A DNA stretch of 42,537 nt. It comes from Acidobacteriota bacterium. GTDB taxonomy: Bacteria; Acidobacteriota; Terriglobia; Acidiferrales; UBA7541. Shown piece after piece: positions 7,840 to 24,659 of this stretch. The notes under the pieces were generated by a model. It was not told where the DNA came from. It made no database searches and saw only the letters and a program-made list of their open reading frames with translations. Position numbers and translations under genes: made by a program. The first letter of the stretch is position 1. Every line of letters starts with the position of its first letter. Location of the stretch: the NCBI GenBank assembly GCA_003224525.1, contig QHZB01000231.1, forward strand, positions 1 to 42,537, given 5' to 3'.

Positions 7840-9075
7840 TTAGTTCTCGCTTGCCCGGCCACGAATACCTGCGGACTTGAGCCGCCAACAGTCTCGGGCG
7901 ATAGCCCAATCTTCTTGGGCACGTACGATTAAGACGTGAACGGTTGAATCGGATAGGGAAACATCCTGGTCCACAGAAGACTGCGTATTCTTTGTGCGGT
8001 CCAGTTTCAGGCCAAGAAATCCGAAGTTGGCACAAGCTGCGGCTCGCACTTCCGGTGAATTTTCTCCGATCCCTGCGGTAAACACCAAAGCATCTATTCC
8101 TCCCAACACTGCCATCATCGCGCCGATACCAGCCTGAAGGCGATGCACGAAGATCTCAAAAGCCAGCTTGGCCCGCGGATGGCCGTCTTTCATCGCGGCC
8201 ACGATCTGCCTCATGTCGCCCGAGACCCCAGAGATTCCCAGCAGGCCTGATTTCGTGTTTAGCAGGTCGTCGAGCTGCTGCCCTGTGAGCTGACCTTCTC
8301 GCATTAAATAAGTGAGGATTCCGGGGTCCACAGAGCCTGATCGCGTTCCCATCATCAGGCCTTCTAGTGGTGTGAATCCCATGGTTGTATCAATGCTTCG
8401 CTCCTCGCGAATCGCCGCCAGAGAGCAACCGTTCCCCAAATGGCAGGTCACGAGTTTCAGTGACCGCAAATCCTTTGCCATGAGCTGTGCGGTGCGCTCG
8501 GCGCAATACCGATGATTGATTCCGTGAAATCCGTAACGGCGAATCCCCTGTGCGAGCCATTCATAAGGACCGGGATATACAGCAGCTGGTTCCGGCAATC
8601 GGCTGTGAAAGCCGGTGTCGAACACAGCCACCTGGAGAACCTCGCCAATGCGTTTCTCGATGATCTCAATCCCGTCGAGCTCGGCGCGGTTATGGAGTGG
8701 GGCAAAGGCGGACATCCGCGCTATTGCAGATTTCACTTCCGGTGTGATGGCTGTTGCTTTGTCGAAGTCTTTGCCACCGTGCACGATACGATGACCTACT
8801 ACGTCGATTTCGGAAGGCGCCGAAACGACGCGCACCTTTCCGCTCCATAACGTATCCAGCAGTTGGTCGATCGCATGAGAGCGCGACGCGACCTGGACTC
8901 GATCTTTCAGCTGCGCTCCCTGTGAATTCTGCGCCCGGGTGTCGGCGTGATTGCCGTCCCATTCAATCTTGCCTTCCCAGGCTGGTGCAGGCGGATGTTC
9001 CGGAAGGGTTTTTCCGATGTCGTAAAGGCAGCTTTTCTGGCTGCTGGAACCCGAATTGAGTACAAGGATTTTCAT
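7840..9075 (-). CDS. ackA: Acetate kinase
   Basis: This 411-residue cytoplasmic kinase converts acetyl phosphate and ADP to acetate and ATP. Motifs in order are LNSGSSSQK at the N-terminus (phosphate binding), GHRIVHGG, VFDTGFH, RRYGFHGINHRY, the adenosine motif HLGNGCSLAAI, GTRSGSVDPG and FTAGIGENSPEVR. The ATG is only 3 bp after the phosphoketolase stop. The two genes therefore form a tightly coupled unit that takes sugar phosphates to acetate plus ATP. Length is normal for the family and no key residue appears missing. Confidence 0.95.
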   Translation of the reverse strand: MKILVLNSGSSSQKSCLYDIGKTLPEHPPAPAWEGKIEWDGNHADTRAQNSQGAQLKDRVQVASRSHAIDQLLDTLWSGKVRVVSAPSEIDVVGHRIVHGGKDFDKATAITPEVKSAIARMSAFAPLHNRAELDGIEIIEKRIGEVLQVAVFDTGFHSRLPEPAAVYPGPYEWLAQGIRRYGFHGINHRYCAERTAQLMAKDLRSLKLVTCHLGNGCSLAAIREERSIDTTMGFTPLEGLMMGTRSGSVDPGILTYLMREGQLTGQQLDDLLNTKSGLLGISGVSGDMRQIVAAMKDGHPRAKLAFEIFVHRLQAGIGAMMAVLGGIDALVFTAGIGENSPEVRAAACANFGFLGLKLDRTKNTQSSVDQDVSLSDSTVHVLIVRAQEDWAIARDCWRLKSAGIRGRASEN

Positions 9076-9078
9076 GGC

Positions 9079-11481
9079 CTAATAGGGCCACTTCCAATCC
9101 CGGACTTCCGGCAAGTCGTCTCCATGTTCGCGGATGAATTGTTTATGATCGACAAGCTTGTTGCGCAGGAACTGTTTGAAATGCGCGCCGACGCGTTGCA
9201 AGCGAGGGACGCGGTCGACCACATCGCCTGCGAGGTGAAATCGATCCAAATCGTTTAGGACCGTCATATCGAAGGGAGTCGTCGTTGTTCCTTCCTCTTT
9301 GTATCCGCGGACGTGGAGGTTGTCATGATTGGTACGCCGATAAGTCAGGCGGTGAATCAGCCACGGATAGCCGTGGTAGGCAAAGATGACCGGCTTGTCT
9401 ATTGTAAAGATCGAGTCGAACTCACGGTCGGAAAGTCCGTGAGGATGTTCGGTTAAGGGCTGAATGGTCATCAAGTCAACCACATTGACGACGCGGATCT
9501 TGATGTCCGGAAAATGCTGGCGCAGAAGGTCGACGGCCGCGAGGGTCTCCAGTGTCGGGATATCTCCCGCACAGGCCATCACCACATCCGGCTCGCTTCC
9601 GTTGTCGGTGGAGGCCCACTGCCAGATTCCAATTCCATTCGTGCAATGTTCGATGGCAGATTCCATGTCGAGCCACTGCAGCGCCGGCTGCTTTCCAGCC
9701 ACGATGACGTTGACGTAGTTTCGGCTGCGGAGGCAGTGATCAGCCACGGAAAGCAGCGTATTAGCATCCGGGGGCAGGTAAACGCGAACGATGTCAGCCT
9801 TCTTGTTCACGACGTGGTCAATGAAGCCAGGATCTTGGTGTGTGAAGCCGTTATGGTCTTGGCGCCAAACGTGAGAAGTTAAGAGGTAGTTCAAGGAAGC
9901 GATCGGCCGTCGCCACGGAATATTTCTCGTCACCTTGAGCCACTTGGCGTGCTGATTGAACATGGAATCTACGATGTGAATGAAGGCCTCGTAGCAGGAG
10001 AAAAACCCGTGGCGGCCAGTGAGCAGATAACCTTCGAGCCAGCCCTGGCACATGTGCTCACTGAGCACCTCCATCACCCGGCCATCTTTTGAAAGGTGCT
10101 CGTCGGTAGGAAGCATTGGCTGCATGAAAACTTTGTCAGTGACTTCGTATAGCGCATCGAGCCGGTTCGAGGCCGTTTCATCAGGACCGAATACCCGAAA
10201 GTTCTTCGAGTCCGCGTTCCGTTTCATGACATCGCGCAGAAGATTTCCTAAGACTCGAGTTGCTTCCGCCGTCTCAGTGCCCGGCTTCGTCACTTTCACC
10301 GCGTATTCGCGGAAGTCTGGCATCACAAGGTCCTTAAGTAGCAGGCCTCCATTCGCGTGCGGGTTGGCGCCCATCCTACGCATGCCACTCGGCACTAGTT
10401 CCGCCAGTTCGGGAATCAACTTGCCACTCCCATCGAATAGTTCCTCAGGCCCATAGCTCTTCAGCCATTCTTCCAGTATCTTTACGTGGTCTGGGTGCGA
10501 GATGAAACTCGTAACGGGCACTTGGTGTGCGCGCCAGGTGTCTTCGACCGGTTTTCCCTCCACTACCTTTGGTCCGGTCCATCCCTTTGGCGTTCGTAGG
10601 ATGATCATTGGCCACGCCGGACATCCGGTGGATCGTCCCGTCCGGGCTTTATTCTGAATCGTGCCTATTTCCGCGACGATCATGTCGAGCGTGTGCGCCA
10701 TGAGTTGGTGCGTGGTCTCCGGCTGATGGCCTTCCACAAAATACGGTTTGTAACCATACCCGGTGAAAAGCTGAGTCAACTCCGCATCACTCAGACGGCT
10801 GAGTATGGTCGGATTCGCGATCTTGTATCCGTTCAAATGCAGGATGGGAAGAACAGCGCCGTCGCGAGCGGGATTCAGAAACTTGTTCGAGTGCCAACTG
10901 GCCGCGAGCGGACCCGTCTCGGCTTCGCCATCACCAACCACGCAACAAACCAGCAGGTCTGGGTTGTCAAAGGCAGCTCCGTAAGCATGTGCAATCGAGT
11001 ATCCCAGTTCACCGCCTTCATGAATTGAGCCTGGCGTCTCTGGGGCGACGTGGCTGGGAATACCTCCCGGGAATGAGAACTGTTTGAAAAGCCTCTTCAG
11101 GCCCTCTTCAGTCTGTGAGATGTTGGAATAGAGCTCGCTGTAACTGCCTTCCAGATAGGTGTTGGCAACCAAACCGGGTCCTCCATGACCTGGACCCGTT
11201 ACGTAGATGACGTTCAGATCGTGCTTCTTGATCAGGCGATTGAAATGAACGTAGATGAAATTTAACCCTGGTGTCGTGCCCCAATGACCCAGCAAGCGGG
11301 GCTTGATGTGCTCGATTTTCAGCGGCTCATGCAGCAGTGGATTAGCATAGAGGTAAATTTGCCCCACGGAAAGATAGTTCGCCGCGCGCCAGTAAGCATG
11401 CATCTTCCGTAGCTCTTCTTCGGACAGAGGCCGTCTGGATTCGTAAGGCTTTGATGAACCTGTGGGTGCCACTGAAGCCAT
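9079..11481 (-). CDS. xfp: Xylulose-5-phosphate/fructose-6-phosphate phosphoketolase
   Basis: The ATG at 11481 is preceded by a GGGAGGG site. The 800-residue thiamine-diphosphate enzyme has the family hallmarks: [36 protein letters not shown], the [20 protein letters not shown] active-site segment, and the TPP/Mg motif [20 protein letters not shown]. It splits xylulose 5-phosphate or fructose 6-phosphate into acetyl phosphate plus a shorter sugar phosphate. Acetate kinase immediately downstream turns the acetyl phosphate into ATP. Substrate preference cannot be read. The 296 bp upstream contain no Crp-like pair, though an inverted repeat (GCTCA-N11-TGAGC) lies at 11618-11638. Confidence 0.96.
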
Positions 11482-12623: not shown

Positions 12624-13436
12624 CTATGTACCGTTTGCTCGATAGGTGAAGCCTGTCTCTGTACTCTTGGCCGGTTCGACGGTGATTTCCTCATCGAGTT
12701 CGCCCAAGCTTTCCTGCCAGACCTTCAGGTGGTAATGACCTGCAGGGACACCCTCAATGCGGAACTTGCCTCCCGCTGCTGAAATCACGTAGTAGGGATT
12801 CTTTGCAACGACAACATATGAGCTCATCCACTTGTGCACGTCGCAGCGAACCGTTACTCGGTCCGCGCGCGCCAGCGTTATTTCCTGGGTGGCCGCACCG
12901 GGCGGGATGGCCTTGTTCACTTCCCGATTAGCGTAGGAAGTAACATGGATGTTGTGCAAGCAAAGGTCGGTGTTTCCCAGCTTGAGGCCTCCCCCCTTCA
13001 TCAGGAGGATATGCGGGACAAACGAGCATTTTTTTTGATCGATTAGAGGGCTCGAGAAATTAAAAGCCTTGCCGCTGGTGATGTCATCGATCCACACGAC
13101 TGCGTCGGCGATTCCTCCCTCTTCGATCCTTACGGGATAAACCTCTTTTGTAGTTCCACAGGCCGACGTGTCACTGGTTACTGTGAAGCGCTTCGGCAGC
13201 ACTGACTTTCCCTTATACAGGATCCGGCCAGAAATCGCTCCGGTGGCGGATTCCTCGATCGTCCGGACCACATAGCTGGAGAACGCGGCCGACTGTGACT
13301 CGCTTGCCGACGCAGCTTGCGGTTCAGGGGCGCCGGGACGGGGCGTCGATCGACTCCAGGCGACAGTGCTTCCCAGAAGGGCCAAGGCGACCAGTGCGCC
13401 CCAGAGGCTCAGTTTCCGAAACTCATTATTCCTCAT
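12624..13436 (-). CDS. Exported cupredoxin-like protein (methylamine-utilization-like)
   Basis: The ATG at 13436 gives a signal peptide (about residues 1-28) and has GAAGGA upstream. Earlier in-frame starts at 13526 and 13661 would bury the signal. The 270-residue product has a beta-sandwich section (GAISGRILYKGK, ADAVVWIDDI) followed by a cupredoxin-like region. Candidate copper ligands are LHNIH (161-164) and C198-x2-H201-x2-M204 in RCDVHKWM, then a carboxypeptidase-regulatory-like end (GKFRIEGVPAGHYHLKVW). It resembles the cupredoxin at 16160 in the C-x2-H-x2-M loop and following segment, so the two are probably distant paralogues. A likely role is a periplasmic electron carrier or copper protein. 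The tandem Crp-like boxes at 13577-13614 fit its promoter, with a TATATT -10 at 13550-13555. Confidence 0.82.
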   Translation of the reverse strand: MRNNEFRKLSLWGALVALALLGSTVAWSRSTPRPGAPEPQAASASESQSAAFSSYVVRTIEESATGAISGRILYKGKSVLPKRFTVTSDTSACGTTKEVYPVRIEEGGIADAVVWIDDITSGKAFNFSSPLIDQKKCSFVPHILLMKGGGLKLGNTDLCLHNIHVTSYANREVNKAIPPGAATQEITLARADRVTVRCDVHKWMSSYVVVAKNPYYVISAAGGKFRIEGVPAGHYHLKVWQESLGELDEEITVEPAKSTETGFTYRANGT

Positions 13437-13493
13437 GATTTGAGTCCTTCTCGCGTTGGATTTCGCGCCGCGACTGGCCGGGGCGCTCTTCAA

Positions 13494-13538
13494 AACTTCC
13501 AAAAGATCGCGCTCGTCTTTCTGCATTTTGGACCTCCC
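13494..13538 (-). pseudogene. Copy 2: start fragment of a lost MQKDERDLLEVL paralogue
   Basis: The fragment holds a GGGAGG site and an ATG at 13526 encoding the same 13 residues as the 239-residue protein gene, then loses all similarity. The frame stays open into the cupredoxin gene, so a 300-residue fusion with an internal signal peptide is possible on paper. The simplest reading is that a paralogue was deleted, leaving its promoter and first codons in front of the cupredoxin gene. Confidence 0.65.
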
Positions 13539-13576
13539 ACTCAAGTCAAAATATAAACTCAACCAAAGAGGAGTGC

Positions 13577-13614
13577 TGTGACCCTCGTCACGTGGCAGTG
13601 TGACGGCCATCACA
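13577..13614. promoter_or_regulatory. Tandem Crp-like operator pair between cupredoxin and Crp/Fnr genes
   Basis: Box 1 at 13577-13592 is TGTGA-N6-TCACG. Box 2 at 13599-13614 is TGTGA-N6-TCACA, a perfect match to the E. coli CRP consensus arms. Starts are 22 bp apart. Read leftward, box 1 is centred about 29 nt before a TATATT element (13555-13550), a class II layout for the cupredoxin promoter. Read rightward, box 2 lies ahead of TAGAAA (13637-13642) and could serve autoregulation of the Crp/Fnr gene. Confidence 0.75.
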
Positions 13615-13741
13615 GACAGGAAACCTTGGATTCCAGTAGAAACAAGGGAATTGGTTGTCATCTACCGGAAGGCTGCGTATGCCAAGCGGGTTTCGTTTTG
13701 TGTCGCGCAGGGAGGGAGGTATACTCCGAGGCGGTGAACTC

Positions 13742-14458
13742 ATGCGCGCCCCTTACGGCTTAGAAATCATTGAGAGCTGCCTGTCCTGCCCCCACCGCGA
13801 GGACCGGCTCTTTTGCAATCTTCCTCCTCCTGCGGTGCAGAGGCTGGCCGCCATCACCTCGGCAGCGGCCTATCCGAAGGGGGCAACTCTCTTCGTGGAA
13901 GGGCAGTCACCGCGTGGGGTCTTCATTTTATGCAGTGGCAAGGTCAAACTGTCGACCTCGTCTGCCGACGGGAGAAGCCTCATTCTTAGGATCTCGCAAG
14001 CGGGAGAAGTTCTGGGCCTGCCCGCGACGGTCACGGGGAAACCTTATGAGCTCACGGCCGATGTAATCGAACCCACGCAAGCGAATTTCATCTCTCGGAC
14101 GGATTTCTTGCTTTTCTTGCGCGAGCACGGCGAGGCAGCACTACGCGTGGCGCAGCAGCTCGGTGAAACGTATCATTCCGCGATCGCGGAAATGCGAACG
14201 ATTGGTCTGTCTCATTCCGCAGGTGAGAAATTGGCTCGCTTCCTGCTCGATCTCTCCGCAGACCATGACGAAGCAAAGGGCGAGGTGAGGCTTACGCTTA
14301 CCCTCACCCACGAAGAAATCGCCCAGATGATCGGGGCCTCCCGAGAGACGGTGACGCGATTGTTCGCCGATTTCAAGAAAAAGCAACTCCTGCAAGTCAA
14401 AGGTTCGACAGTTATCATCAAAAATATGGCAGGGCTCGAAAGAGTTGTGAGCACTTAG
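13742..14458 (+). CDS. Crp/Fnr family transcriptional regulator with N-terminal Cys cluster
   Basis: The 238-residue protein starts at the ATG at 13742 (GAGG upstream); in-frame ATGs at 13655 and 13679 would add residues with no family similarity. The N-terminus has C13-x2-C16-x8-C25, and a fourth cysteine, C64, lies in the beta-roll (GVFILCSGKVKL). This recalls Fnr sensors, although the spacing differs from E. coli Fnr. The effector domain (about 30-140) is followed by a dimer helix and a winged helix: LTHEEIAQMIGASRETVTRLF. The recognition helix RETVTR (201-206) has the Arg, Glu and Arg with which CRP reads TGTGA. Matching boxes lie ahead of this gene and two others in the window, so it is probably their regulator, perhaps responding to oxygen, redox or NO. 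Confidence 0.9.
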   Translation: MRAPYGLEIIESCLSCPHREDRLFCNLPPPAVQRLAAITSAAAYPKGATLFVEGQSPRGVFILCSGKVKLSTSSADGRSLILRISQAGEVLGLPATVTGKPYELTADVIEPTQANFISRTDFLLFLREHGEAALRVAQQLGETYHSAIAEMRTIGLSHSAGEKLARFLLDLSADHDEAKGEVRLTLTLTHEEIAQMIGASRETVTRLFADFKKKQLLQVKGSTVIIKNMAGLERVVST

Positions 14459-14543: not shown

Positions 14544-14647
14544 GCAGTTCATCTGAACTACAAGCAACAATGCAGACCGTTGAAGCCTGGCGGTGAGTTC
14601 AGGAACTTGGCCCGCAGTTCTTCGGGCGAGATTTGGAGGATAAGGGA

Positions 14648-16105
14648 ATGAAGGGTCGCGTACTGAATACCAGCATTATGGCGAGTCTGACTGCGGTCGT
14701 GGTCGTTTTGTGGGGAATGCTTGCGTCTGTGCCTAAGACCTCCGCGATCCCCGCGTTTTCACGGAAGTACCAGACGTCGTGCACCACCTGCCATAACAAC
14801 TATCCGGAACTGAACGACTTCGGAGAAGCATTCAAGAAGAACGGGTTCAAGTTTCCGAAAGACGACGAGGTCTTTGTAAAAGAACCGCCTGTCCTGTTGG
14901 GTTCAAAAGCGCAGAAAGAGGCCTTTCCTGGTGCCGTCTATCCCGGCGAGATTCCCGGATACCTGCCGATCGCGTTCCGGTACGAAGGGAATTTCACTCT
15001 GAATCGCAAGCAGCCCACAGGCGGCGTCGTGCAGAACGGATTCACACCGCGGACGGACATTTTTGCTCCAAACACCTTCACGATCCTCGCTGTGGGGACC
15101 TTCGGGCAAAACCTCTCGTTTTGGATCGATGATGACATCTCAGTCGGAGCGGCCAATGCCAATGGCGGCATGGGAGACGGCTGGCTCAAATATAGCGATC
15201 TGGGCCACGGCATCGGGTTGCCGAAGAACGCGCTGAACGTCCGGTTCGGTCAGTTTGAATTGGATCTGCCCTTTACACAGGCAAAGAGTATCTATCTCTC
15301 TCCTTTTGACATTTACGGCGAAGGGAATGTAGCGGGCACTCTGGGTACCGCAAACAATTCGACGATTTTTGGGGCGCCACAGCGAGGCATCGAGTTCGGC
15401 GGCACGCCGAACAATGGAAACTTCGATTGGTCGGTAGCCGTCACCAACGGAAGCAATGTCGGAACTGCGACGCGGAGTTCGAAAGACGTTTACGTTCGTC
15501 TCTCCCAAAAATTCAACCTGGAGCGCGATCCGGAAAGCCGCAATGCCATCCAAGCTGCGGGCCCAACTGGCCCTCGGGATCACACGTCAATCCGGCTCGG
15601 GTTCCTCTACTACTACGGCAAGAACCAACAGAACCAGGACGGCGTACCCTTTCCGGGTTTGGCGACCATCGAGGAACCGTTCTTTCGCGTGGGCGGCGAT
15701 ATGCGGTTCAAATACCGGAAGCTGGAGCTATTCGGACTCGGAATGTTCGGCCATGACGACAATCACTTGTTCACTGCCGGACCACCCGCGACCACCGGCG
15801 TTGCTCCTGCCGTGAAATTCTCCGGCGGGTTTGCCGGCGCCAACTACTGGTTCTATCCATGGCTGATCGGGACCTTCCATTACGACGCTGTGAATTCCCA
15901 TGCGGACTTCGTGAACGGCGCGCCGGCATCGCAGTACCGCACGCGGAACCGCTTCAGCCCGGGCTTCCAGGTGCTCGTACGCGCCAACATCAAAGTCGTT
16001 GGCGAATATCAGTACACCTTTGGGCGGCCTTACACAGACCTAGCAGGAAACACACTCTTCTTCCGTCCAAACACGTTCCAGACAGGCATCGACTACGTCT
16101 TTTGA
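14648..16105 (+). CDS. Monohaem cytochrome-porin fusion, Cyc2-like architecture
   Basis: The ATG at 14648 follows a GGAGG site. The 485-residue product has a signal peptide (1-33), then one haem c motif C45-T-T-C48-H49 followed by NNYPELNDFGEAFKKNGF, then about 400 residues of alternating polar/aromatic strands ending in FQTGIDYVF, the aromatic terminus of an outer-membrane barrel. One haem at the mouth of a barrel is the plan of Cyc2 iron oxidases, whose haem motif is likewise followed by a P-x-L-N-x-F-G segment. That is shared architecture and a short motif, not proof of iron oxidation. It heads a collinear run with a cupredoxin and a Rieske/cytochrome b complex, so it may pass electrons across the outer membrane in either direction. 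Tandem Crp-like boxes lie upstream. Confidence 0.82.
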   Translation: MKGRVLNTSIMASLTAVVVVLWGMLASVPKTSAIPAFSRKYQTSCTTCHNNYPELNDFGEAFKKNGFKFPKDDEVFVKEPPVLLGSKAQKEAFPGAVYPGEIPGYLPIAFRYEGNFTLNRKQPTGGVVQNGFTPRTDIFAPNTFTILAVGTFGQNLSFWIDDDISVGAANANGGMGDGWLKYSDLGHGIGLPKNALNVRFGQFELDLPFTQAKSIYLSPFDIYGEGNVAGTLGTANNSTIFGAPQRGIEFGGTPNNGNFDWSVAVTNGSNVGTATRSSKDVYVRLSQKFNLERDPESRNAIQAAGPTGPRDHTSIRLGFLYYYGKNQQNQDGVPFPGLATIEEPFFRVGGDMRFKYRKLELFGLGMFGHDDNHLFTAGPPATTGVAPAVKFSGGFAGANYWFYPWLIGTFHYDAVNSHADFVNGAPASQYRTRNRFSPGFQVLVRANIKVVGEYQYTFGRPYTDLAGNTLFFRPNTFQTGIDYVF

Positions 16106-16159
16106 GAATATCGAACTCGGAACTTGAATCGCCCGCACATCAAATACGAGAGGAACGTC

Positions 16160-16771
16160 ATGAATCCATCGAGAATCGCAGCAAAGGCAGCAGTCGCAGC
16201 AAGTCTCATCGTGGTGATGGCCGGCGCAAGCCAGGCGAATGAAATCAAAGGAAAGGTGAGCGTGCAAGGGATCAAGTCCGTAGAAAGCATCGCCGTATAT
16301 GTGGATGCGATTCCAGACAAGAAGTTCGATGCGCCGAAAGACCATGTCGTGATTGACCAGCGGAAAATGGCGTTCATTCCCCATGTCGTGGCCGTGCAGC
16401 AGGGAACTCCGGTCGAATTTCTGAACAGCGATCCCGTTGGCCACAACGTTTATTGGCCTTCGATCAGTGGGAACAAAAAGCTCTCTCACAATCTCGGCAC
16501 CTGGCCGAAGGGAGAGAAGAAGCCATTCCAATTTAATGATCTCGGCGTCGCTTCTTTACTCTGCAACGTCCATCCGGAAATGTCCGGCTATGTCGTCGTT
16601 GTTCCCACGCCGTATTTTGCGGTGACGGACAAGGACGGAAATTTTGAAATCAAGAATGTACCTGCTGGGAAATATACGCTGAAGACGTGGAGCGAAGACG
16701 GCAAACCCACAACGCAGGCTGTGGACGTTGCCGCTGGAACCGTCACGGTTGACCTGACGGTAAAGAAGTAA
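16160..16771 (+). CDS. Periplasmic cupredoxin (type 1 copper protein)
   Basis: An ATG at 16160, with GAGAGGA six bases before it, gives a 203-residue protein with a signal peptide (1-26). Type 1 copper ligands are all visible: H95 in DPVGHNVYW and C135-x2-H138-x2-M141 in LLCNVHPEMSGY. The last 50 residues (GNFEIKNVPAGKYTLKTWSE) form a carboxypeptidase-regulatory-like tail, as in the paralogue at 12624. Lying 54 bp after the haem-porin gene and 30 bp before the Fe-S flavoprotein gene, it is a natural shuttle between the outer-membrane cytochrome and the inner-membrane complex. The direction of electron flow is not shown by sequence. Confidence 0.88.
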   Translation: MNPSRIAAKAAVAASLIVVMAGASQANEIKGKVSVQGIKSVESIAVYVDAIPDKKFDAPKDHVVIDQRKMAFIPHVVAVQQGTPVEFLNSDPVGHNVYWPSISGNKKLSHNLGTWPKGEKKPFQFNDLGVASLLCNVHPEMSGYVVVVPTPYFAVTDKDGNFEIKNVPAGKYTLKTWSEDGKPTTQAVDVAAGTVTVDLTVKK

Positions 16772-16801: not shown

Positions 16802-18751
16802 GTGAGCACGCGCACCAAACTCGTTGATCTTGAGTGGCTTGAGTCGAACTTCCCCTGTATGCAGGCGTGTCCTGTCCATACGCAAGCCGGACGCTACGTT
16901 GCGCTGATCGCCGAGGGAAGGTACGAGGAAGCGTACCGCTACGCCCGAGTCCCCAACCCTTTCGCTTCCATCTGTGGCCGCGTCTGCGGGCATCCCTGCG
17001 AGCCAGCCTGCCGCCGCGGGCAATTTGACAAGCCCATTTCCATCCGCGCCCTGAAGCGCTTCGTCACCGAGCGCCATGGACCGGAATCGCGCAATTCCAT
17101 CGATGTTTTTGCTGGAACGCCCCGGCCCGTCCGGCCGGAAAAAATTGCCATTATCGGCTCTGGCCCGGCCGGGATGTCGGCGGCGCACGATCTGGCGCTC
17201 CTCGGTTATCCCGTCACCGTTTTCGAAGCCGCGCCGGTGCCCGGTGGAATGATGCATCTCGGCATTCCCGAATATCGCCTGCCGCGCGATGTTTTGCAGG
17301 CCCAGATTCGAGAAATTCTGGACCTGGGGCCGGAACTCCGCCTGAACACGCGGCTCGGTCGTGACTTTTCTCTGGAAGACCTCCGTCGTCAGGGCTACAA
17401 AGCCGTGCTGCTCGCGTTTGGCCTGCACCGCAGCCGTGACCTCAATCTTCCGGGGCATGAGCTGGACGGGGTAGTGAAAGGGATCGATTTTCTTCTCAAC
17501 GTCAATCTTGGCTACCGCTTCTCCATCGGCAAGCAAGTCGTCGTCATCGGCGGAGGCAACGTTGCAATCGACGTGGCGCGCTCGGCTATGCGCGAACAAC
17601 AGAAACTCGCAGCGGACGCAGACACCGCGGGGCTTCCCAATGAACTGACTTCCAGCGAGATAGATGTCGCTATGAAAGAGTTCATGGACGTTTCCCGTCA
17701 GGCGCTACGCATGGGGGCTCGTGAAGTACACCTTGTGTGCCTCGAATCGCGCCAGGAAATGCCCGCTTCAGAAGAAGAGATTGAAGAGGGCTTGGTCGAG
17801 GGGATCAGGATTCATCCCTCGCTCGGCCCGAAGCAGTTCGTCGGTCAGAATGGCAAAGTAACTGGTCTCGAAGTGATCCGCTGCACCTCCGTACTCGACG
17901 CGCAGCGGCGGTTCAGCCCTACCTTTGCTACCGGCACGGAAACAATCATCCCATGCGACACAATCATTCTGGCCATCGGGCAAGCTTCCGACCTGTCCTT
18001 TCTCAAGCCCGCCGATGGCCTCGAAACCACGCGGCAAGGCACCTTGAAGATCGATCCCGCGACACTTATGACCACGGCGCCGGGAATTTTCGCAGCCGGG
18101 GACATCGCCTTTGGTCCGCGCCTGATCATCAATGCCGTTGCGGATGGCAAAAAAGCCGCGGAAGAAATCGACAAATTTATTCGGGGATCCGAGTGGAAGC
18201 CCAAGCCCCAGTATGTACAAATCACAGTTCTTGATCATCACAAAATGGCGGGGCGGTACGACGAATATTCCCGCCTGGCTGTGCCGGTCATCCCCCTCGA
18301 GCGCCGTACCGGCATAGCCGAAGTCGAAACCGGCTTTACGGAAGAACAGGCGAGGCGAGAAGCGTCGCGTTGTCTTCAGTGCTGGATCAACACCATTTTT
18401 GAAGGGACCGAGGCGAACGGCAGCGAGTGCATCCTCTGCGGCGGCTGTGTTGATGTTTGCCCGGAAAATTGCCTACAGCTCGTGCCACTAAGCCAATTCG
18501 AATTTTCCGATGACACGACACAACAGTTGTCCGTCACATCCGATTCGCGGGCTAACGAACTTCTCCACCTCTCGCCTGAAGAACTACGCACTGCCCCTGG
18601 TTCGGTGATGGTGAAAGACGAAACTATCTGCATCCGTTGTGGCCTTTGCGCGGAGCGCTGCCCCGTTCACACCATCACCATGGAAGCTTTTGAGGTTTTC
18701 GATCGCGACTCAAATTTAGTCCAAATTGAGGAGATAGTTCTCCACGCATGA
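16802..18751 (+). CDS. GltD-like FAD/NAD(P) oxidoreductase with extra Fe-S domains
   Basis: The start is a GTG at 16802. The 649-residue soluble protein begins with the Fe-S segment of the GltD/NADPH-dependent family (C19-x3-C23P; C58, C62, C66, C70), then FAD motif IIGSGPAGMSAAHD (118-131), a second Rossmann motif VVVIGGGNVAIDVA near 245-258 and the ATG-like FAD end GIFAAGDIAFGPRLI. Two [4Fe-4S] ferredoxin motifs follow: C543-x2-C546-x2-C549-x3-C553P and C610-x2-C613-x2-C616-x3-C620P. It would exchange electrons between NAD(P)H and Fe-S centres. Its stop overlaps the Rieske gene by 4 bp, so it is probably a peripheral module of that complex. A NAD(P) module within a Rieske/cytochrome b operon is not standard. 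Confidence 0.87.
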   Translation: MSTRTKLVDLEWLESNFPCMQACPVHTQAGRYVALIAEGRYEEAYRYARVPNPFASICGRVCGHPCEPACRRGQFDKPISIRALKRFVTERHGPESRNSIDVFAGTPRPVRPEKIAIIGSGPAGMSAAHDLALLGYPVTVFEAAPVPGGMMHLGIPEYRLPRDVLQAQIREILDLGPELRLNTRLGRDFSLEDLRRQGYKAVLLAFGLHRSRDLNLPGHELDGVVKGIDFLLNVNLGYRFSIGKQVVVIGGGNVAIDVARSAMREQQKLAADADTAGLPNELTSSEIDVAMKEFMDVSRQALRMGAREVHLVCLESRQEMPASEEEIEEGLVEGIRIHPSLGPKQFVGQNGKVTGLEVIRCTSVLDAQRRFSPTFATGTETIIPCDTIILAIGQASDLSFLKPADGLETTRQGTLKIDPATLMTTAPGIFAAGDIAFGPRLIINAVADGKKAAEEIDKFIRGSEWKPKPQYVQITVLDHHKMAGRYDEYSRLAVPVIPLERRTGIAEVETGFTEEQARREASRCLQCWINTIFEGTEANGSECILCGGCVDVCPENCLQLVPLSQFEFSDDTTQQLSVTSDSRANELLHLSPEELRTAPGSVMVKDETICIRCGLCAERCPVHTITMEAFEVFDRDSNLVQIEEIVLHA

Positions 18752-19257
18752 GTGAAACAAAACACCCTTCGTTCCCTGGAGTGCCCTTCTCCGGGGATGC
18801 CGTTAATGAGATCACCCGGCGCGATTTCTTGAACGAAATCACTCTAGGCGCCCTCGGCATTGCCGGTCTAGGCTCCGTTGCCGTGACCTATCAATTCTTT
18901 TCACCCAACGTTTTGTTTGAGCCCCCGACGACTTTTCGCGCCGGCAATCCCGATCTTTATCCCATCCATTCTGTAACGTTTCTTCAGGACCAGCAGGTGT
19001 ACATCGTGCGCATGCCCGAGGGCTTCTATGCAGTGTCCGCCGTCTGCACCCATCTTGGCTGCGTTACAGAATGGAAGCCCGATGCCGACATGATTGCGTG
19101 CCCGTGCCACGGCAGCAAGTTCAAAGCGGACGGCACAAAAATCGAAGGTCCCGCGCCGCGGCCACTCCCGCACTTCGCTATCTCGGTGACACCGGATGGC
19201 GAATTGCTCGTCGACAAGTTGCAAAACATCAAGCCCGCGCAGGTTCTGAAAGTCTAA
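18748..19257 (+). CDS. Rieske iron-sulfur protein
   Basis: This 169-residue protein starts within the overlapping ATGA of the upstream flavoprotein gene. It has a Tat-type anchor ([20 protein letters not shown]). The [2Fe-2S] ligands are C100 and H102 in CTHLGC, and C118 and H121 in CPCHGSKF; C105 and C120 supply the usual disulfide. It would take electrons from quinol at the Qo site and pass them to a cytochrome c partner. Only 8 bp separate it from the cytochrome b gene. Length and motifs are typical of b6f/bc-type Rieske subunits. Confidence 0.95.
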
Positions 19258-19265
19258 GGGAAACG

Positions 19266-20018
19266 ATGGCTTCAACTCTTCATTCCGCGCTGCAGAACCT
19301 TCGGGATAGGAAAGTCTGGAAGTCCATCTTTCGCCGCGGCCCTGCAAATACGAACCGCACGCGCAGCCTCGCCGTCTTCGGCAATCTCTTCCTCCATTGG
19401 TTGCCCGTCAAGGTTCGGGAGAAGTCCCTCCGCGTGCGTGCCTCGTACTATCTGGGCTCGGTCTCCTTCATCCTTTTTATCGTTCTGTTCGTCACCGGCA
19501 TTCTACTGATGTTCTACTACCACCCAGCCGCGCCCCATGCCTACCGGGACATGAAGGATCTTCAGTTCGTCGTTTCCAATGGCGTCTTTCTTCGTAATCT
19601 TCACCGGCTGGCCGCACATTTAATGGTTTTCGCCGTGTTCTGGCACATGTTTCACGTGTTCTACCGCGGGGGCTATAAACCGCCGCACGAGTTCAACTGG
19701 GTGGTCGGCGTCGTGCTCCTTCTTGTCACGCTGTTGCTCAGCTACACCGGCTATCTCCTGCCCTGGGACCAGCTCGCCTTCTGGGCCGTGACCGTTGGCA
19801 CCAACATCATTTCCGCCATGCCCTTCGTTGGCGACAAAATTCGGTTCCTGCTGCTTGGTGGGAACATCGTAGGAGAAAACGCGTTGCTGCGTTTCTACGT
19901 GCTGCACGTCGTGATCCTTCCTCTTGTCGCTTTCTTGCTCATCGGAATTCATTTCTGGCGTGTGCAAAAGGACGGCGGTCTGACCGTAAAGCCCAAGGAC
20001 GACGATGGAAAAGAATAA
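19266..20018 (+). CDS. Cytochrome b6-like subunit (diheme, N-terminal half of cytochrome b)
   Basis: The ATG at 19266 with AGGGA upstream gives 250 residues; the longer open frame from 19071 lies inside the Rieske gene. Helix B has a His-x13-His pair (LHRLAAH...FWHMFH) and helix D a His-x14-His pair (VLHVVILP...GIHFW), the spacings of cytochrome b6. The Qo-side [18 protein letters not shown] is well kept. The position of the b6 cysteine that carries the extra c-type haem in b6f complexes aligns with Tyr (ASYYLG), so that haem is unlikely. The last 14 bp overlap the subunit-IV gene, a split arrangement as in b6f complexes. Confidence 0.93.
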
Positions 20019-20661
20019 AATCGAGACCGGCTTTAGCTCGGACGCGAAGAAGGAGCCACGCCGCGTCGTTTTTGTCGCCAAGAAGACCTCTGCCAAGGTA
20101 GTAGGCGATCCCGGCCCTCAGTTGATGACTTACCCCCATCTCTTGATTCGCGAGGCGATCGCGTTTCAGTTGCTCGTGATTGTTATGGTGCTCGTCGCAC
20201 TTTTCTGGGACGCGCCGCTCGAGCAACTCGCGAATCCGCTGCTTACCCCGAATCCCGCCAAGGCCCCGTGGTATTTTCTCGGCCTCCAGGAACTGCTGCA
20301 CTTTTTCCCGCCATTCGTGGCCGGAATATTGATTCCGACATTGGTGGTGATCGCGCTCGTGGTCATTCCTTATTTCAATGTGAACGTCGAAGGCAAGGCA
20401 ATCTGGTCGCGGCCCGCACAAAATCTGAGAATAGTTCTCGTCACCGTATTCCTCCTGCTGGCGTTTCTTGCCGTGTTCTATGCATGGACGATTTTCCTGC
20501 CGACGGCGCTCGTTGCGGCTCTTCTGCTTTTCTCTTATACCGCGCGGGCTGGAGAAAAAGGCTCGTTTCAAGTGCTGGCCAGGAAGCCCGTCTCCTGGTG
20601 GGTCATGACCTGGTTTATTGCTGTTGCCCTTTGTTTGACTGTCGTGGGCACATTTTTCTGA
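20005..20661 (+). CDS. Cytochrome b subunit IV-like protein
   Basis: This 218-residue membrane protein overlaps the b6-like gene by 14 bp. A charged N-terminal 40 residues precede four hydrophobic segments. The Qo-site motif appears as [18 protein letters not shown], so the canonical PEWY or PDWY is APWY here, without the acidic residue proposed to accept a quinol proton. The last segments ([19 protein letters not shown] and [18 protein letters not shown]) exceed the three helices of plant subunit IV. It completes the quinol-oxidising cytochrome b core. Confidence 0.88.
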
Positions 20662-20665
20662 AGAA

Positions 20666-22789
20666 ATGGGCAAATTGACGAATCGCACGCGGCTGGTCCT
20701 CGCAGTTTCCAGCGTTATGTTCCTGGCCGTGCTGGCCATTTCACCCTTCAAGGATTTTCGTCGCGAGTGGAAGCAGTACAAGCACTCGTACTTGCGCTTT
20801 GCGCAAACTCGTCCGGACACAAAAAAACTAGTGGCGGACTACCGCCCCGACATTGATCAAATCTGGCTGCCGGGCATGAACGTCGTCGATCGCTGCACTA
20901 CTTGTCATTACGGAATCACGCAAGCGAGCCTCGCGGATCAGTCGGTCCCGCAACCCTTCCGTGCGCATCCACCGATTCCCCACAACGTTCGCGACTGGGG
21001 TTGTACCATCTGTCATCGCGGCCAAGGTCCAGCCACCGAAGTCGCCGAAGCCCACAAGTCCACACTCGCGTGGGAGCAACCGATCTTGCCAACCCGCTTC
21101 ATTCAAGCGTCATGCGGCACATGTCACTACGCCGACCTGCCCCAGACGCCCCAGCTGACCCGCGGCCGCGCGCTTCTCGCCGGACTGAATTGTCAGGGCT
21201 GCCACCGTCTGCCCGGAGTCGAACGTCCCGCGATGCTGGCTCCCGACCTCACAAACGTGGGCACCAAAGTCAGCCGCGAATGGATTTACAAGTGGCTGAA
21301 GGAACCGCGCACCATCGTCGACAAAGACGGCAACGTCACCGTGAACGGCTACGAGGCGGAAGATGAGCCGCGCATGCCGAAGTTCCGCCTGACCGAGACC
21401 GAACTCCGCGGGCTTTCTGCTTATCTCAGCGTGCAGAAAGCCAAAGCCTTTGTGTCCTACAAGCTCGATGCCCGCGTCGTTGCTGCCTGGACCAAAAATC
21501 CGGAACTGGCTTCGCAAGGCGAATTGCGCTTCCGCCAGATGTTCTGCTCGACGTGCCACTCCCTCGCCGTCACGCGCGCCGGCGAAACCAAGCTGATCGG
21601 CGGCGACATCGGCCCGGAGCTGACCAAAGTCGGCAGCAAGGTCAATCCCGATTGGCTCATCACCTGGCTCCGCGATCCACAGGGCTATCTCCCGCACACT
21701 CGCATGCCGCGCTACGGCTGGTCGGATGAAGATCTCTTCAAGGTCACACGATACATCGCCACCAAGCTGACCGATCCCGACCTCCTAACCGGCGTTCCGC
21801 AGCTTGGGCAGCCAAGAGAAGACGAAATTCAGCTCGGGCGTCGCCTATTTCTCGAAAAAGGCTGTGCCAGCTGCCATGTGATCGAAGGGTTGAACCCACA
21901 AAAAGATTTCGGGCCGGATCTGAGCGCTATCGGTGGAAAGAACACCTCCGAGCTGGAATTCGGCGCCTCAAAAATTCCGCACAACCTTGTCTCCTACATT
22001 CAGGCCAAGCTGCAGGACCCCGCCTCCGTCAATCCTGCCGCGCGCATGCCCCAATACAACTGGAACCAGCCCGACCTCGACGCCATTACGACAGCCCTCC
22101 TCAGCATGAAAGGCGCTCCGCCAACCAGCGCGCTGCAAAATCTGGTTGTGCCACGCAAGGAAGTTGATTTCCATCCCACGGGCGCGTTTGAGGAAGTCTA
22201 CGAACGCTACAAATGCTATTCCTGCCACAAATTCAACGGCTACGGCGGGGACTTGGCGCCTGACCTCACCTACGAAGGCAGCCGCGCCCAGCGGCAGTGG
22301 ATCGTGGACTTTCTGAAGAACCCGCAAACGCTCCGCCCCACGGTCGTCTTGCGCATGCCGCAATTCAATATGAGCGGCAGGGACGCCGCGACACTTGCTG
22401 ACTATATGACCATGGTGCTCCAGCATCCCGCAGCGAATCCCACGGCTGTCGACGCCAAGCAATTCACGCTTGCGATGGTTGCCCTCGGCAAGCAGCTCTA
22501 CGAAGTGAAGTATCAATGCCAGTCGTGCCACACGATCGGCGGTACCGGCGGATACGTCGGGCCCAACCTGAGCAATGCGGGCGACTGGTTGACACCCGCA
22601 TGGATCGAGGCCTGGTTGAGAAATCCTCAGGCACTCGTTCCGGATACCATCGAGCCGCGACGAAATTTTACTGCAGATGAGGTCAGGGCTTTGACGGCGT
22701 ACCTGACGACCTTGCGACAGAGCATCAAACCACAAAAAACCGCTAGTACCACTGCAAAGCACGCTGCAACTCAAGGGGCCGGCCGATGA
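20666..22789 (+). CDS. Octahaem c-type cytochrome of the Rieske/cytochrome b complex
   Basis: The 707-residue protein starts 5 bp after the subunit-IV stop. It has an N-terminal membrane anchor (about 10-28) and eight CxxCH haem motifs at C77, C113, C150, C176, C294, C400, C517 and C618. The first three are closely spaced in a non-repetitive domain. The last five each begin a class I-like cytochrome module of about 100 residues with the repeated pattern GPDL...G-K...W...L.P....P...MP, including likely Met ligands. It replaces the single-haem cytochrome f or c1 and could wire the Rieske protein to several partners. Its stop overlaps the next cytochrome gene by 4 bp. Confidence 0.92.
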   Translation: MGKLTNRTRLVLAVSSVMFLAVLAISPFKDFRREWKQYKHSYLRFAQTRPDTKKLVADYRPDIDQIWLPGMNVVDRCTTCHYGITQASLADQSVPQPFRAHPPIPHNVRDWGCTICHRGQGPATEVAEAHKSTLAWEQPILPTRFIQASCGTCHYADLPQTPQLTRGRALLAGLNCQGCHRLPGVERPAMLAPDLTNVGTKVSREWIYKWLKEPRTIVDKDGNVTVNGYEAEDEPRMPKFRLTETELRGLSAYLSVQKAKAFVSYKLDARVVAAWTKNPELASQGELRFRQMFCSTCHSLAVTRAGETKLIGGDIGPELTKVGSKVNPDWLITWLRDPQGYLPHTRMPRYGWSDEDLFKVTRYIATKLTDPDLLTGVPQLGQPREDEIQLGRRLFLEKGCASCHVIEGLNPQKDFGPDLSAIGGKNTSELEFGASKIPHNLVSYIQAKLQDPASVNPAARMPQYNWNQPDLDAITTALLSMKGAPPTSALQNLVVPRKEVDFHPTGAFEEVYERYKCYSCHKFNGYGGDLAPDLTYEGSRAQRQWIVDFLKNPQTLRPTVVLRMPQFNMSGRDAATLADYMTMVLQHPAANPTAVDAKQFTLAMVALGKQLYEVKYQCQSCHTIGGTGGYVGPNLSNAGDWLTPAWIEAWLRNPQALVPDTIEPRRNFTADEVRALTAYLTTLRQSIKPQKTASTTAKHAATQGAGR

Positions 22790-23277
22790 AATTCCATGTC
22801 TGGTTCGGCGCCCTCCTATTGATGACTCTCGCAGGCGCCGCAGCGTGCCGCAAAAATGCAGAATCTGCCAAAGCCGATCCGCTTCTATCGGCGTACGATA
22901 CCGAGGCCGACTGGAACGATGCGCAACACGTCGTTCCTCTGAGTTTTCAGCAAGCGCAAGGGAAGCGTATTTTTTACCAACAGTGTGTCTGGTGCCACGC
23001 AGACTCTACGCCTGCCGGCCCATCTAACCGTTCAAACCTGACGCCTGTTCCACCCTTGCTGAATGACCGTGCAACGTTGAACGCGGAAAGCGACGAGTAC
23101 ATGCAGAACATCGTTGCACTCGGTGGCACTGCGATGGGCAAATCGGCGATGATGCCGCCATACGGACGTATGCTTTCGGCGGAGGAGATCCGCTCCGTGG
23201 TTGCTTTCACGCGGGCCATCGCCCAGCCGCCCTATCAGCCCCCGGCACGAGCCGAATCGCAATATTCTGCCAAATAG
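22786..23277 (+). CDS. Monohaem c-type cytochrome lipoprotein
   Basis: The ATG overlaps the octahaem gene stop (ATGA). The 163-residue product has a signal with a lipobox-like LAGAAAC (Cys21), so membrane anchoring by lipid is likely. A single haem motif CVWCH lies near residue 67, and MMPPYGRMLSAEEI supplies candidate Met ligands, followed by the final helix IRSVVAFTRAIA of a class I cytochrome c. It is probably the electron carrier or exit subunit of the complex. The stop codon overlaps the ribosome-binding site of the next gene, keeping that gene in the same unit. Confidence 0.9.
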   Translation: MKFHVWFGALLLMTLAGAAACRKNAESAKADPLLSAYDTEADWNDAQHVVPLSFQQAQGKRIFYQQCVWCHADSTPAGPSNRSNLTPVPPLLNDRATLNAESDEYMQNIVALGGTAMGKSAMMPPYGRMLSAEEIRSVVAFTRAIAQPPYQPPARAESQYSAK

Positions 23278-23288
23278 GAGGTGCTCTT

Positions 23289-24659
23289 GTGCGAGCTATG
23301 AAACTCAGGCCTTCTTTCCGCTTCAGTCGCCGAACACTTTTCCTGGCGATTGGACTGGCGACGAGTTTTTCCGCGCCACCTGCGTCCGCACAGGTAAGCC
23401 CGTCTGAAATCCTGAATCCTGATCTCAGGGCACTCGAAGAGTCTTATTTCCAGCAGTTGAAGACTCTTAATCAGTCGATCGCTAGAACGAAATTCCCCTT
23501 TCCTTTCTATCTAAGCCGCTTCGTCGGCCTCGACCCTGCGCACCAAACAGAGGCCGATTCACGCGGCTTGGAGTTCGCCCGTTTTCACGATCGCGTGATT
23601 CTTAAAGCGACTGGAAATTACAACGTGGCCTATGACACCGGGCGCCTCACGCAGAACGAGCGTGCTGCCAGTACGTTCCGCACCGTAGTCCTTCCTATTC
23701 TGGAACAACTGACGGCTGCTGTGCCGGAAGACTTGGCTTGTGATGGCATCGGTTTCGAAATTTCTCATCACGTCCACACTCGGGAGCGCAGCTACGACTA
23801 CGAAGGAAAAGAAATCCTCGTCGTGGTGCTCGACCGCGATGATGCTTGGGCGCTGGCCCGCGCCTCCACGGATTCCGCGCGCCAGGAAATCCTGAATCGT
23901 TCGAAAGTGTATGTTAGCGGAACCGACTTTGGCCTTTCGCTCACGGAACGCGATCCCCTCAATGTTCAAGCACTGCCTCGCTCCATCCCTGCCAAACCGG
24001 ATGCAACCTCTACCGCGCGTTCTTCGACCTTTGTAGCCCGCTCTTCCTTGCTCAAATCAATTCATTCGCGGCCATCCGTCTCACCGGATGTTCCGTCCCC
24101 CGCGGGGGACCCCAATCCCGCAAGCGGCAATCCAGTTCTGCCTTCGCCTAGGGCTGTTGATCCTTCGCCCGCGAGTTCTCTGCCAGCGCCGGCTGACGCC
24201 GAGCGTCTGAACGAAAAGCATCAAGCACAGTTAGCTGCTCTGGCAAAGGAGGGCGCAACGAAGTTTCATTTCGCCGATTACGCCCCGCCCACCTTCATGG
24301 TCTTTCGCGATGAGATCGCCCTCCAGATGACCTTGCGAAATTCCATCCAGTTCGGGCGTGTGAAGGGATCCATTTACAAAAGAGCCGCGCAGAGTTTTGA
24401 CTTGTTCCTGGCCCCTCAGCTCAAGGATCTATCAGATAGGATTTCGCCGGATTTGCAATTTCAACTCTTCGACTTTTCCGTCCTGAATAGACTTTCTCCC
24501 GGCGTGAAAGGGAGTTCCGAGGCGATTGAATTCATTTGTCCGCGAACCGCTCTCAAACAATTCGTGAACGCGGAGATCACGAACCAGCAACTACTTGATC
24601 AGAGTGTGGTCTTGGTGAACGGCGTGCGCATCGCCCTGAACCTCCAACTCGTGGAATAG
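23289..24659 (+). CDS. Exported protein of unknown function closing the respiratory operon
   Basis: A GTG at 23289 lies 7 nt after a perfect AGGAGGTG; the ATG at 23298 is too far from it. The 456-residue product has a twin-Arg-containing signal (FSRRTLFLAIGLATSFSAPPASA). The N-terminal half (about 35-215) is acidic and helical, with HHVHTRERSYDYEGKEILVVVLDRDD. A Pro/Ser/Ala-rich linker runs from about 225 to 300, and a C-terminal domain of about 150 residues follows. No haem, Fe-S or catalytic motif is seen. Tight coupling to the cytochrome genes suggests an assembly or accessory role, but the family is not one I can name. Confidence 0.75.
   Translation: MRAMKLRPSFRFSRRTLFLAIGLATSFSAPPASAQVSPSEILNPDLRALEESYFQQLKTLNQSIARTKFPFPFYLSRFVGLDPAHQTEADSRGLEFARFHDRVILKATGNYNVAYDTGRLTQNERAASTFRTVVLPILEQLTAAVPEDLACDGIGFEISHHVHTRERSYDYEGKEILVVVLDRDDAWALARASTDSARQEILNRSKVYVSGTDFGLSLTERDPLNVQALPRSIPAKPDATSTARSSTFVARSSLLKSIHSRPSVSPDVPSPAGDPNPASGNPVLPSPRAVDPSPASSLPAPADAERLNEKHQAQLAALAKEGATKFHFADYAPPTFMVFRDEIALQMTLRNSIQFGRVKGSIYKRAAQSFDLFLAPQLKDLSDRISPDLQFQLFDFSVLNRLSPGVKGSSEAIEFICPRTALKQFVNAEITNQQLLDQSVVLVNGVRIALNLQLVE

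Follow-up and report, generated by a model that had tools for sequence, protein, structure and literature searches.

What does a GltD-like flavoprotein do when its gene runs directly into that of a Rieske protein? The question arises in the window studied here, the whole 42,537-nucleotide stretch of a contig (G000:C438) from the 98%-complete genome of a soil acidobacterium. A sequence-only reading of this DNA had claimed that the flavoprotein has four Fe-S segments, two of them C-terminal [4Fe-4S] motifs added to a GltD-like core, that its stop codon overlaps the Rieske start, and that it links an FAD/NAD(P) module to a quinol-oxidising cytochrome b core, possibly bifurcating electrons in the manner of NfnB.

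The flavoprotein operon and the genes upstream of it

The features identified in the window are collected in Table 1. The operon runs in the order flavoprotein, Rieske protein, b6-type cytochrome b, subunit IV, octahaem cytochrome c and monohaem cytochrome c, with overlaps or short gaps between the genes. The overlap between the first two was confirmed as claimed: the flavoprotein stop TGA (18749-18751) and the Rieske ATG at 18748 share the sequence ATGA. On the flavoprotein, Pfam recognized Fer4_20 (residues 17-91), Pyr_redox_2 (114-449) and Fer4/Fer4_7 (543-626). The Ser/Phe pair of the Rieske protein only suggests a high-potential center (> +300 mV), and its nearest solved relatives are Kuste4569 (9rk4, 95 bits) and Kustd1480 (9rk3, 81 bits), with b6f-type Rieske proteins just behind at 77 bits or less. 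Cytochrome b and subunit IV both score below the curated cut-offs of the NCBIfam models for the ExtP/ExtQ b-type cytochromes (NF040969/NF040970). Hydropathy analysis of subunit IV gave four segments, one of them 45 residues long, which corresponds to approximately five transmembrane helices. Its Qo motif (20260-20274) is KAPWY, not PEWY, so that the glutamate normally found at Qo is either absent or shifted; KAPWY was discarded as a discriminator, since complexes that lack the flavoprotein have it as well. The 456-residue protein at the operon end had no match in Pfam or NCBIfam.

Table 1. Coordinates of genes, domains and diagnostic residues in the window
Feature	Position	Strand	Basis and remarks
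Crp/Fnr-type regulator, upstream	13655..14458	+	Pfam
Cyc2-like cytochrome-porin	14633..16105	+	N-terminal c haem AIPAFSRKY..CTTCH..PEL; start codon uncertain
Periplasmic cupredoxin with CarboxypepD_reg domain	16124..16771	+	His/Cys/His/Met type-1 copper pattern; Pfam
GltD-like FAD/NAD(H) flavoprotein	16802..18751	+	ORF, Pfam, AlphaFold2, fold match, alignment; 649 aa, GTG start
N-terminal Fe-S domain, Fer4_20 (C19, C23, C58, C62, C66, C70)	16850..17074	+	Pfam
Lys85, aligned with StnC Lys170 (FAD-proximal cluster)	17054..17056	+	Alignment
FAD and NAD(P) double Rossmann domain (Pyr_redox_2)	17141..18148	+	Pfam; structure model
Insertion of about 30 residues, NAD subdomain	17594..17683	+	Alignment, model; low pLDDT
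Nucleotide motif CLES (E315), in place of NADPH-enzyme YRR	17738..17752	+	Alignment
C524-x2-C527 pair, GltD N-terminal CxxC moved to C-terminal side	18371..18382	+	Alignment
First C-terminal [4Fe-4S] motif CxxCxxCxxxC (C543/546/549/553, plus C557)	18428..18472	+	Pfam, alignment
Second C-terminal [4Fe-4S] motif CxRCxxCxxxC (C610/613/616/620)	18629..18661	+	Pfam, alignment
Rieske [2Fe-2S] protein	18748..19257	+	Pfam; ATG overlaps flavoprotein stop; Ser/Phe pair as Kustd1480
b6-type cytochrome b (ExtP-like)	19266..20018	+	Pfam Cytochrome_B, NCBIfam
His44 of cytochrome b	19395..19397	+	Possible equivalent of Kuste4571 His43 / Kustd1481 His62, judged from position only
Tyr62 at b6 haem-cN cysteine position	19449..19451	+	Alignment
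Subunit IV (ExtQ-like)	20005..20661	+	Pfam Cytochrom_B_C, NCBIfam, hydropathy; Qo motif KAPWY
Octahaem cytochrome c, N-terminal TM segment	20666..22789	+	Eight CxxCH; Pfam
Monohaem cytochrome c	22786..23277	+	Pfam, motif reading
Conserved 456-aa protein, operon end	23289..24659	+	Kept in most close relatives

Published criteria for Cyc2 are the motif AXPXFAR[Q/K][T/Y] before CXXCH, PXL after it, a 16-strand porin and a length of more than 365 residues (PMC8406198). The haem motif of the window porin is one substitution (A to S) away from the Cyc2 motif, which is found exactly in 13 of 25 aligned rows, and PEL follows the haem. Sixteen strands were predicted for the protein (pLDDT 65), with matches to the OprP and OmpF folds, OprP being the best. 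The porin is thus a possible outer-membrane electron conduit, and its presence raises an explanation based on uptake of extracellular electrons, from Fe(II) or a similar donor, in which they would pass from the porin through the cupredoxin to the cytochromes while the flavoprotein branch makes NADH. The near-match to the Cyc2 motif, the predicted strands and the OprP fold agree with this, as does the finding of cytochrome-porin and cupredoxin genes ahead of the flavoprotein in close relatives. However, more distant linked loci often lack both genes, no RuBisCO was found in the genome, and the function of Cyc2 homologs away from the characterized ones is uncertain (PMC8406198). Bifurcation, moreover, requires the oxidation of quinol, not of cytochrome c. 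We consider electron uptake improbable.

Further upstream, a minus-strand gene at 12624-13661 that diverges from the Crp/Fnr gene encodes a CarboxypepD_reg/fn3_3 protein, which resembles the C-terminal domain of the cupredoxin. Adjoining acetate kinase and phosphoketolase-like genes (7840-11481, minus strand), read from sequence only, lie upstream of the respiratory cluster.

Linkage of the flavoprotein with cytochrome b

The flavoprotein gene recurs at 72-93% identity in 26 acidobacterial loci. In nearly all of these with enough flanking DNA, it stands within the series porin, cupredoxin, flavoprotein, Rieske protein, cytochrome b, subunit IV, octahaem c, monohaem c and orphan protein. One exception was seen in L022, where a fragment of the flavoprotein abuts the orphan gene of the operon end and the Rieske and cytochrome b genes are missing; this looks like a deletion or a misassembly.

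A wider survey started from cytochrome b in 297 Acidobacteriota genomes, and about 120 loci were read. These loci were selected among the best cytochrome b matches, and the counts obtained from them are not a measure of prevalence. A flavoprotein gene was located near cytochrome b in 78 loci (74 from Acidobacteriota and 4 from Nitrospirota), including some with a fusion of cytochrome b and subunit IV. The flavoprotein was on the same strand in every one, upstream in 67 and downstream in 11. When cytochromes b were placed on a tree, the acidobacterial ones with a linked flavoprotein grouped in a single clade (SH-aLRT 94), and 75 of its 79 members are linked. Pairwise distances of flavoprotein and cytochrome b were correlated with an r of 0.90 (Mantel 0/1000), a value to which shared ancestry contributes. 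Because the genes share a strand in 78/78 loci, mostly with the flavoprotein just upstream, and diverge in parallel, their linkage, as judged from these genomic patterns, is not due to chance.

The same observations bear on the view that the protein is a stand-alone GltD-like oxidoreductase which merely shares an operon with a Rieske/cytochrome b complex. Other GltD-like proteins are soluble and have partners of their own, and contact of the window flavoprotein with the complex is a prediction from the genes. Set against this are the start-stop overlap, the common strand, the parallel divergence, an insertion and a nucleotide motif characteristic of the linked forms (see below), and the reported comigration of all Kuste4569-4574 subunits of the anammox bacterium Kuenenia stuttgartiensis (PMC12954380). 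A clear match to a stand-alone glutamate synthase or a dihydropyrimidine dehydrogenase, to which the sequence-only reading had drawn attention, was looked for and neither was found; every listed gltD/GOGAT NCBIfam model scored below its curated cut-off on the flavoprotein. We regard the stand-alone explanation as very unlikely.

A second class of Rieske/cytochrome b complexes in Acidobacteriota has no flavoprotein, and both classes are sometimes found in one genome.

Fold, iron-sulfur clusters and nucleotide specificity

The AlphaFold2 model of the flavoprotein (pLDDT 86, pTM 0.85) was compared with known structures using VIA-align. The best matches were 9bov_A, 9n5u_A, 8oh5_C and 9n5v_A, with Z scores of 36-38, and three of these four extended to model residue 631 or further, the best spanning residues 11-631. 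Scores were lower for NfnL/NfnB (29-30), GltD (26-30) and dihydropyrimidine dehydrogenase (about 27). The GltD-like domain of StnC in StnABC and of NfnABC (8oh5, 9bov, 9n5u) thus resembles the window protein in fold, and it also has the RCLxC segment on the C-terminal side and, at the proximal cluster, a lysine. It differs in being one part of a far longer chain whose bifurcating partners are soluble, and in having a YRR (NADPH) motif, whereas the window flavoprotein ends in a short ferredoxin tail and has a membrane complex as its putative partner; Pfam found neither a NuoG-like fusion nor StnAB partners in the 649-residue protein or its neighbors. Dihydropyrimidine dehydrogenase has in common with it the GltD-like core and an 8Fe ferredoxin tail, giving four clusters, but has a pyrimidine/FMN domain absent from the window protein, a glutamine ligand and no membrane partner.

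Cysteine conservation follows the domains. Those of the N-terminal Fer4_20 domain are kept in 76-81 of 83 flavoprotein rows, the remaining rows being mostly gaps, and the C-terminal ones in 69/69 rows that extend that far, which is far above chance; R612 of the second C-terminal motif is invariant. The two added C-terminal motifs noticed earlier are therefore borne out by Pfam and by conservation. The cysteines for four clusters are likewise present, though the count of four segments needed revision: the cofactors make more sense as a pair of GltD-type clusters together with a 2[4Fe-4S] ferredoxin tail. C524 and C527 belong to an EAxRCLQC segment, which NfnL carries N-terminally and the window protein on the C-terminal side. 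The longer pattern ER..EV..G...EA.RCLQC occupies residues 498-527 in the window flavoprotein, as in StnC, and is N-terminal in NfnL and 4ylf. One GltD-type cluster is thus better read as being completed by this C-terminal CxxC pair, with Lys85 at the position of the fourth ligand. Lys85 is a lysine in all 81 non-gap rows; at this position NfnB and GltS have glutamate and dihydropyrimidine dehydrogenase has glutamine. In StnC, Lys170 coordinates the FAD-proximal cluster in one state, where NfnB uses glutamate (PMC10482914).

These results also concern the route proposed by the sequence-only reading, flavin-based bifurcation within the flavoprotein itself, as in NfnB of the Nfn transhydrogenase. 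NfnB shares the GltD-like core, FAD and two GltD-type clusters, and Arg159, the counterpart of the NfnB arginine that binds N5, is invariant. NfnB nevertheless differs in its glutamate at the proximal cluster and its N-terminal RCLxC, has no ferredoxin tail and needs NfnS; no NfnS-like (FNR-like, [2Fe-2S]) partner was detected by Pfam among the operon genes. StnC, whose fold is nearer, has the same N5-type arginine yet does not bifurcate, its FAD having been reported as non-bifurcating (PMC10482914). On fold rank and Lys85 the NfnB analogy was rejected, and bifurcation at this flavin is very unlikely.

An insertion of about 30 residues in the NAD subdomain is found neither in NfnL/StnC nor in unlinked paralogs. 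For contrast we used GltD-like paralogs with YRR and no Rieske/cytochrome b genes nearby (L027, L028, L030). E315 is present in 79/81 linked flavoproteins, which have L-E at the YRR position, while the unlinked paralogs retain YRR. In NfnB, two arginines bind the extra phosphate of NADP, and these probably lie in the YRR stretch. Because the linked forms have L-E where NADPH enzymes and unlinked paralogs have YRR, NAD(H) is the likely substrate of the window flavoprotein.

Relation to anammox complexes and direction of electron flow

Two gene clusters of K. stuttgartiensis, Kuste4569-4574 and Kustd1480-1485, encode complexes in which a b6-type cytochrome b is combined with multihaem c, a subunit IV of five helices and a putative four-cluster NAD(P) oxidoreductase (PMC12954380). 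The comparison with the Kuenenia flavoprotein and cytochrome b relies on the text of that paper, and the comparison of Rieske proteins on two PDB chains. Like the anammox complexes, with their Rieske protein, hexa- or octahaem c and FAD-proximal lysine, the window has a flavoprotein encoded with Rieske/cytochrome b, a separate five-helix subunit IV, an octahaem c in place of cytochrome f, and a lysine near an FAD-proximal cluster that lacks a fourth cysteine. By analogy, the flavoprotein is the counterpart of the putative anammox NAD(P) oxidoreductase subunit. The window differs in coming from Acidobacteriota, in lacking the haem-cN cysteine (Tyr62) and an HAO-like octahaem subunit, in its NAD-type motif, and in the genes for a Cyc2-like porin and a cupredoxin upstream. 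On sequence grounds, the complex is a widespread acidobacterial variant of the anammox type. In both Kuenenia oxidoreductases the cluster nearest FAD has no fourth cysteine and is approached by a buried lysine (Hauser et al., PMC12954380); because of the StnC Lys170 result, this cluster may be a lysine-ligated [4Fe-4S] rather than a [3Fe-4S].

The earlier idea of an FAD/NAD module tied to a quinol-oxidising Rieske/cytochrome b core thus finds good support in comparative data, namely gene order, strand and parallel divergence in 78 loci and the published Kuenenia architecture, while the NfnB route does not. The idea is not new: for the Kuenenia complexes (Kartal et al. 2013, cited by Hauser et al. 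2025, PMC12954380), Q-cycle bifurcation making NAD(P)H has already been proposed.

We consider it moderately probable that the flavoprotein, as a subunit of a dimeric Rieske/cytochrome b complex, handles NADH on its cytoplasmic side, and that a Q-cycle in this complex splits the electrons of menaquinol to yield NADH. Menaquinol would be oxidised at the Qp site. One electron would pass to the high-potential Rieske center and, by way of first the octahaem and then the monohaem cytochrome c, reach terminal acceptors. The second would travel through hemes bP and bN, and perhaps also a haem at His44, to the four-cluster chain of the flavoprotein, and from its ferredoxin tail through the two GltD clusters and FAD to NAD+. 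Splitting would be quinone-based, with the flavin acting as an ordinary two-electron/one-electron switch; if electrons are split, the likely site is the quinol at Qp, not the flavin. From the quoted potentials of -70 mV for menaquinone and -320 mV for NAD+ (PMC12954380), it follows that the high branch must end above approximately +180 mV, with a further amount to pay for the membrane potential; a Rieske center at +300 mV could satisfy this requirement. The genome contains menaquinone (futalosine) genes, haem-copper oxidases and complex I (two NuoH genes). Against Q-cycle production of NADH, it is not obviously needed because complex I is present, and no RuBisCO was found. Kuste4571 His43 and Kustd1481 His62 are proposed ligands of an inter-monomer haem b (PMC12954380). 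His44 was rejected as a marker of the flavoprotein-linked complex, as it is conserved with and without the flavoprotein and so does not mark a gateway haem.

The same anatomy would fit a complex running in the oxidising direction, from NADH through FAD and the clusters to cytochrome b, as an NADH:menaquinone/cytochrome c oxidoreductase joining NADH to multihaem c; anatomy alone gives no direction. The NAD-type motif would be in keeping with a catabolic pool of NADH, and the upstream porin and cupredoxin could carry electrons outward. However, the two NuoH genes of complex I make a lossy oxidation of NADH less useful, Hauser et al. argue likewise for Kuenenia (PMC12954380), and the cN site associated with quinone reduction has been lost in the linked acidobacterial forms. 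We think the oxidising direction unlikely, although it deserves consideration.

Attachment of haem cN is common to all b6f complexes and is not diagnostic of the anammox-type family. The cysteine was present in 0/74 linked and 23/45 unlinked acidobacterial cytochromes b, some of the 45 having short flanks, and within Acidobacteriota it occurs in a clade without the flavoprotein. Its loss in linked forms fits a diversion of electrons from the Qn side, and is suggestive at most. As independent evidence, the anticorrelation of cysteine and flavoprotein was discarded, because the tree needs just 2 and 3 changes (sign test p = 1). Kuenenia models keep the haem-cN site (PMC12954380), as do three Nitrospirota loci.

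A broader proposal, which we put forward only tentatively, is that quinol bifurcation makes NADH at Rieske/cytochrome b complexes across Acidobacteriota and some Nitrospirota, the haem-cN branch having been given up so that low-potential electrons reach the flavoprotein, and that in some lineages the complex is joined to a Cyc2-like conduit. Open papers gave no relevant text match for this complex in Acidobacteria, and in those searched direct reduction of NAD+ by quinol at a bc-type complex is proposed only for anammox bacteria, where it is unproven. The same module and cluster chemistry across Acidobacteriota would shift testing to organisms that may grow more easily. The anammox authors name a problem, namely what prevents electrons from reaching menaquinone at the negative side (PMC12954380). 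Complexes that have the flavoprotein and complexes that lack it, at times present together in a single genome, offer a natural comparison for it.

Two further arrangements were seen. The window's genome has a second Rieske/cytochrome b/octahaem c complex, without a flavoprotein (L122, G000:C80:1-11000), with a haem-copper oxidase on the same contig (C80:557-1963). In the three Nitrospirota loci that keep the haem-cN cysteine (L149, L152 and L155), the flavoprotein lies about 4 kb from the Rieske/cytochrome b complex, which is accompanied by pentahaem cytochromes and in L149 also by an 11-haem cytochrome, another arrangement of the same parts.
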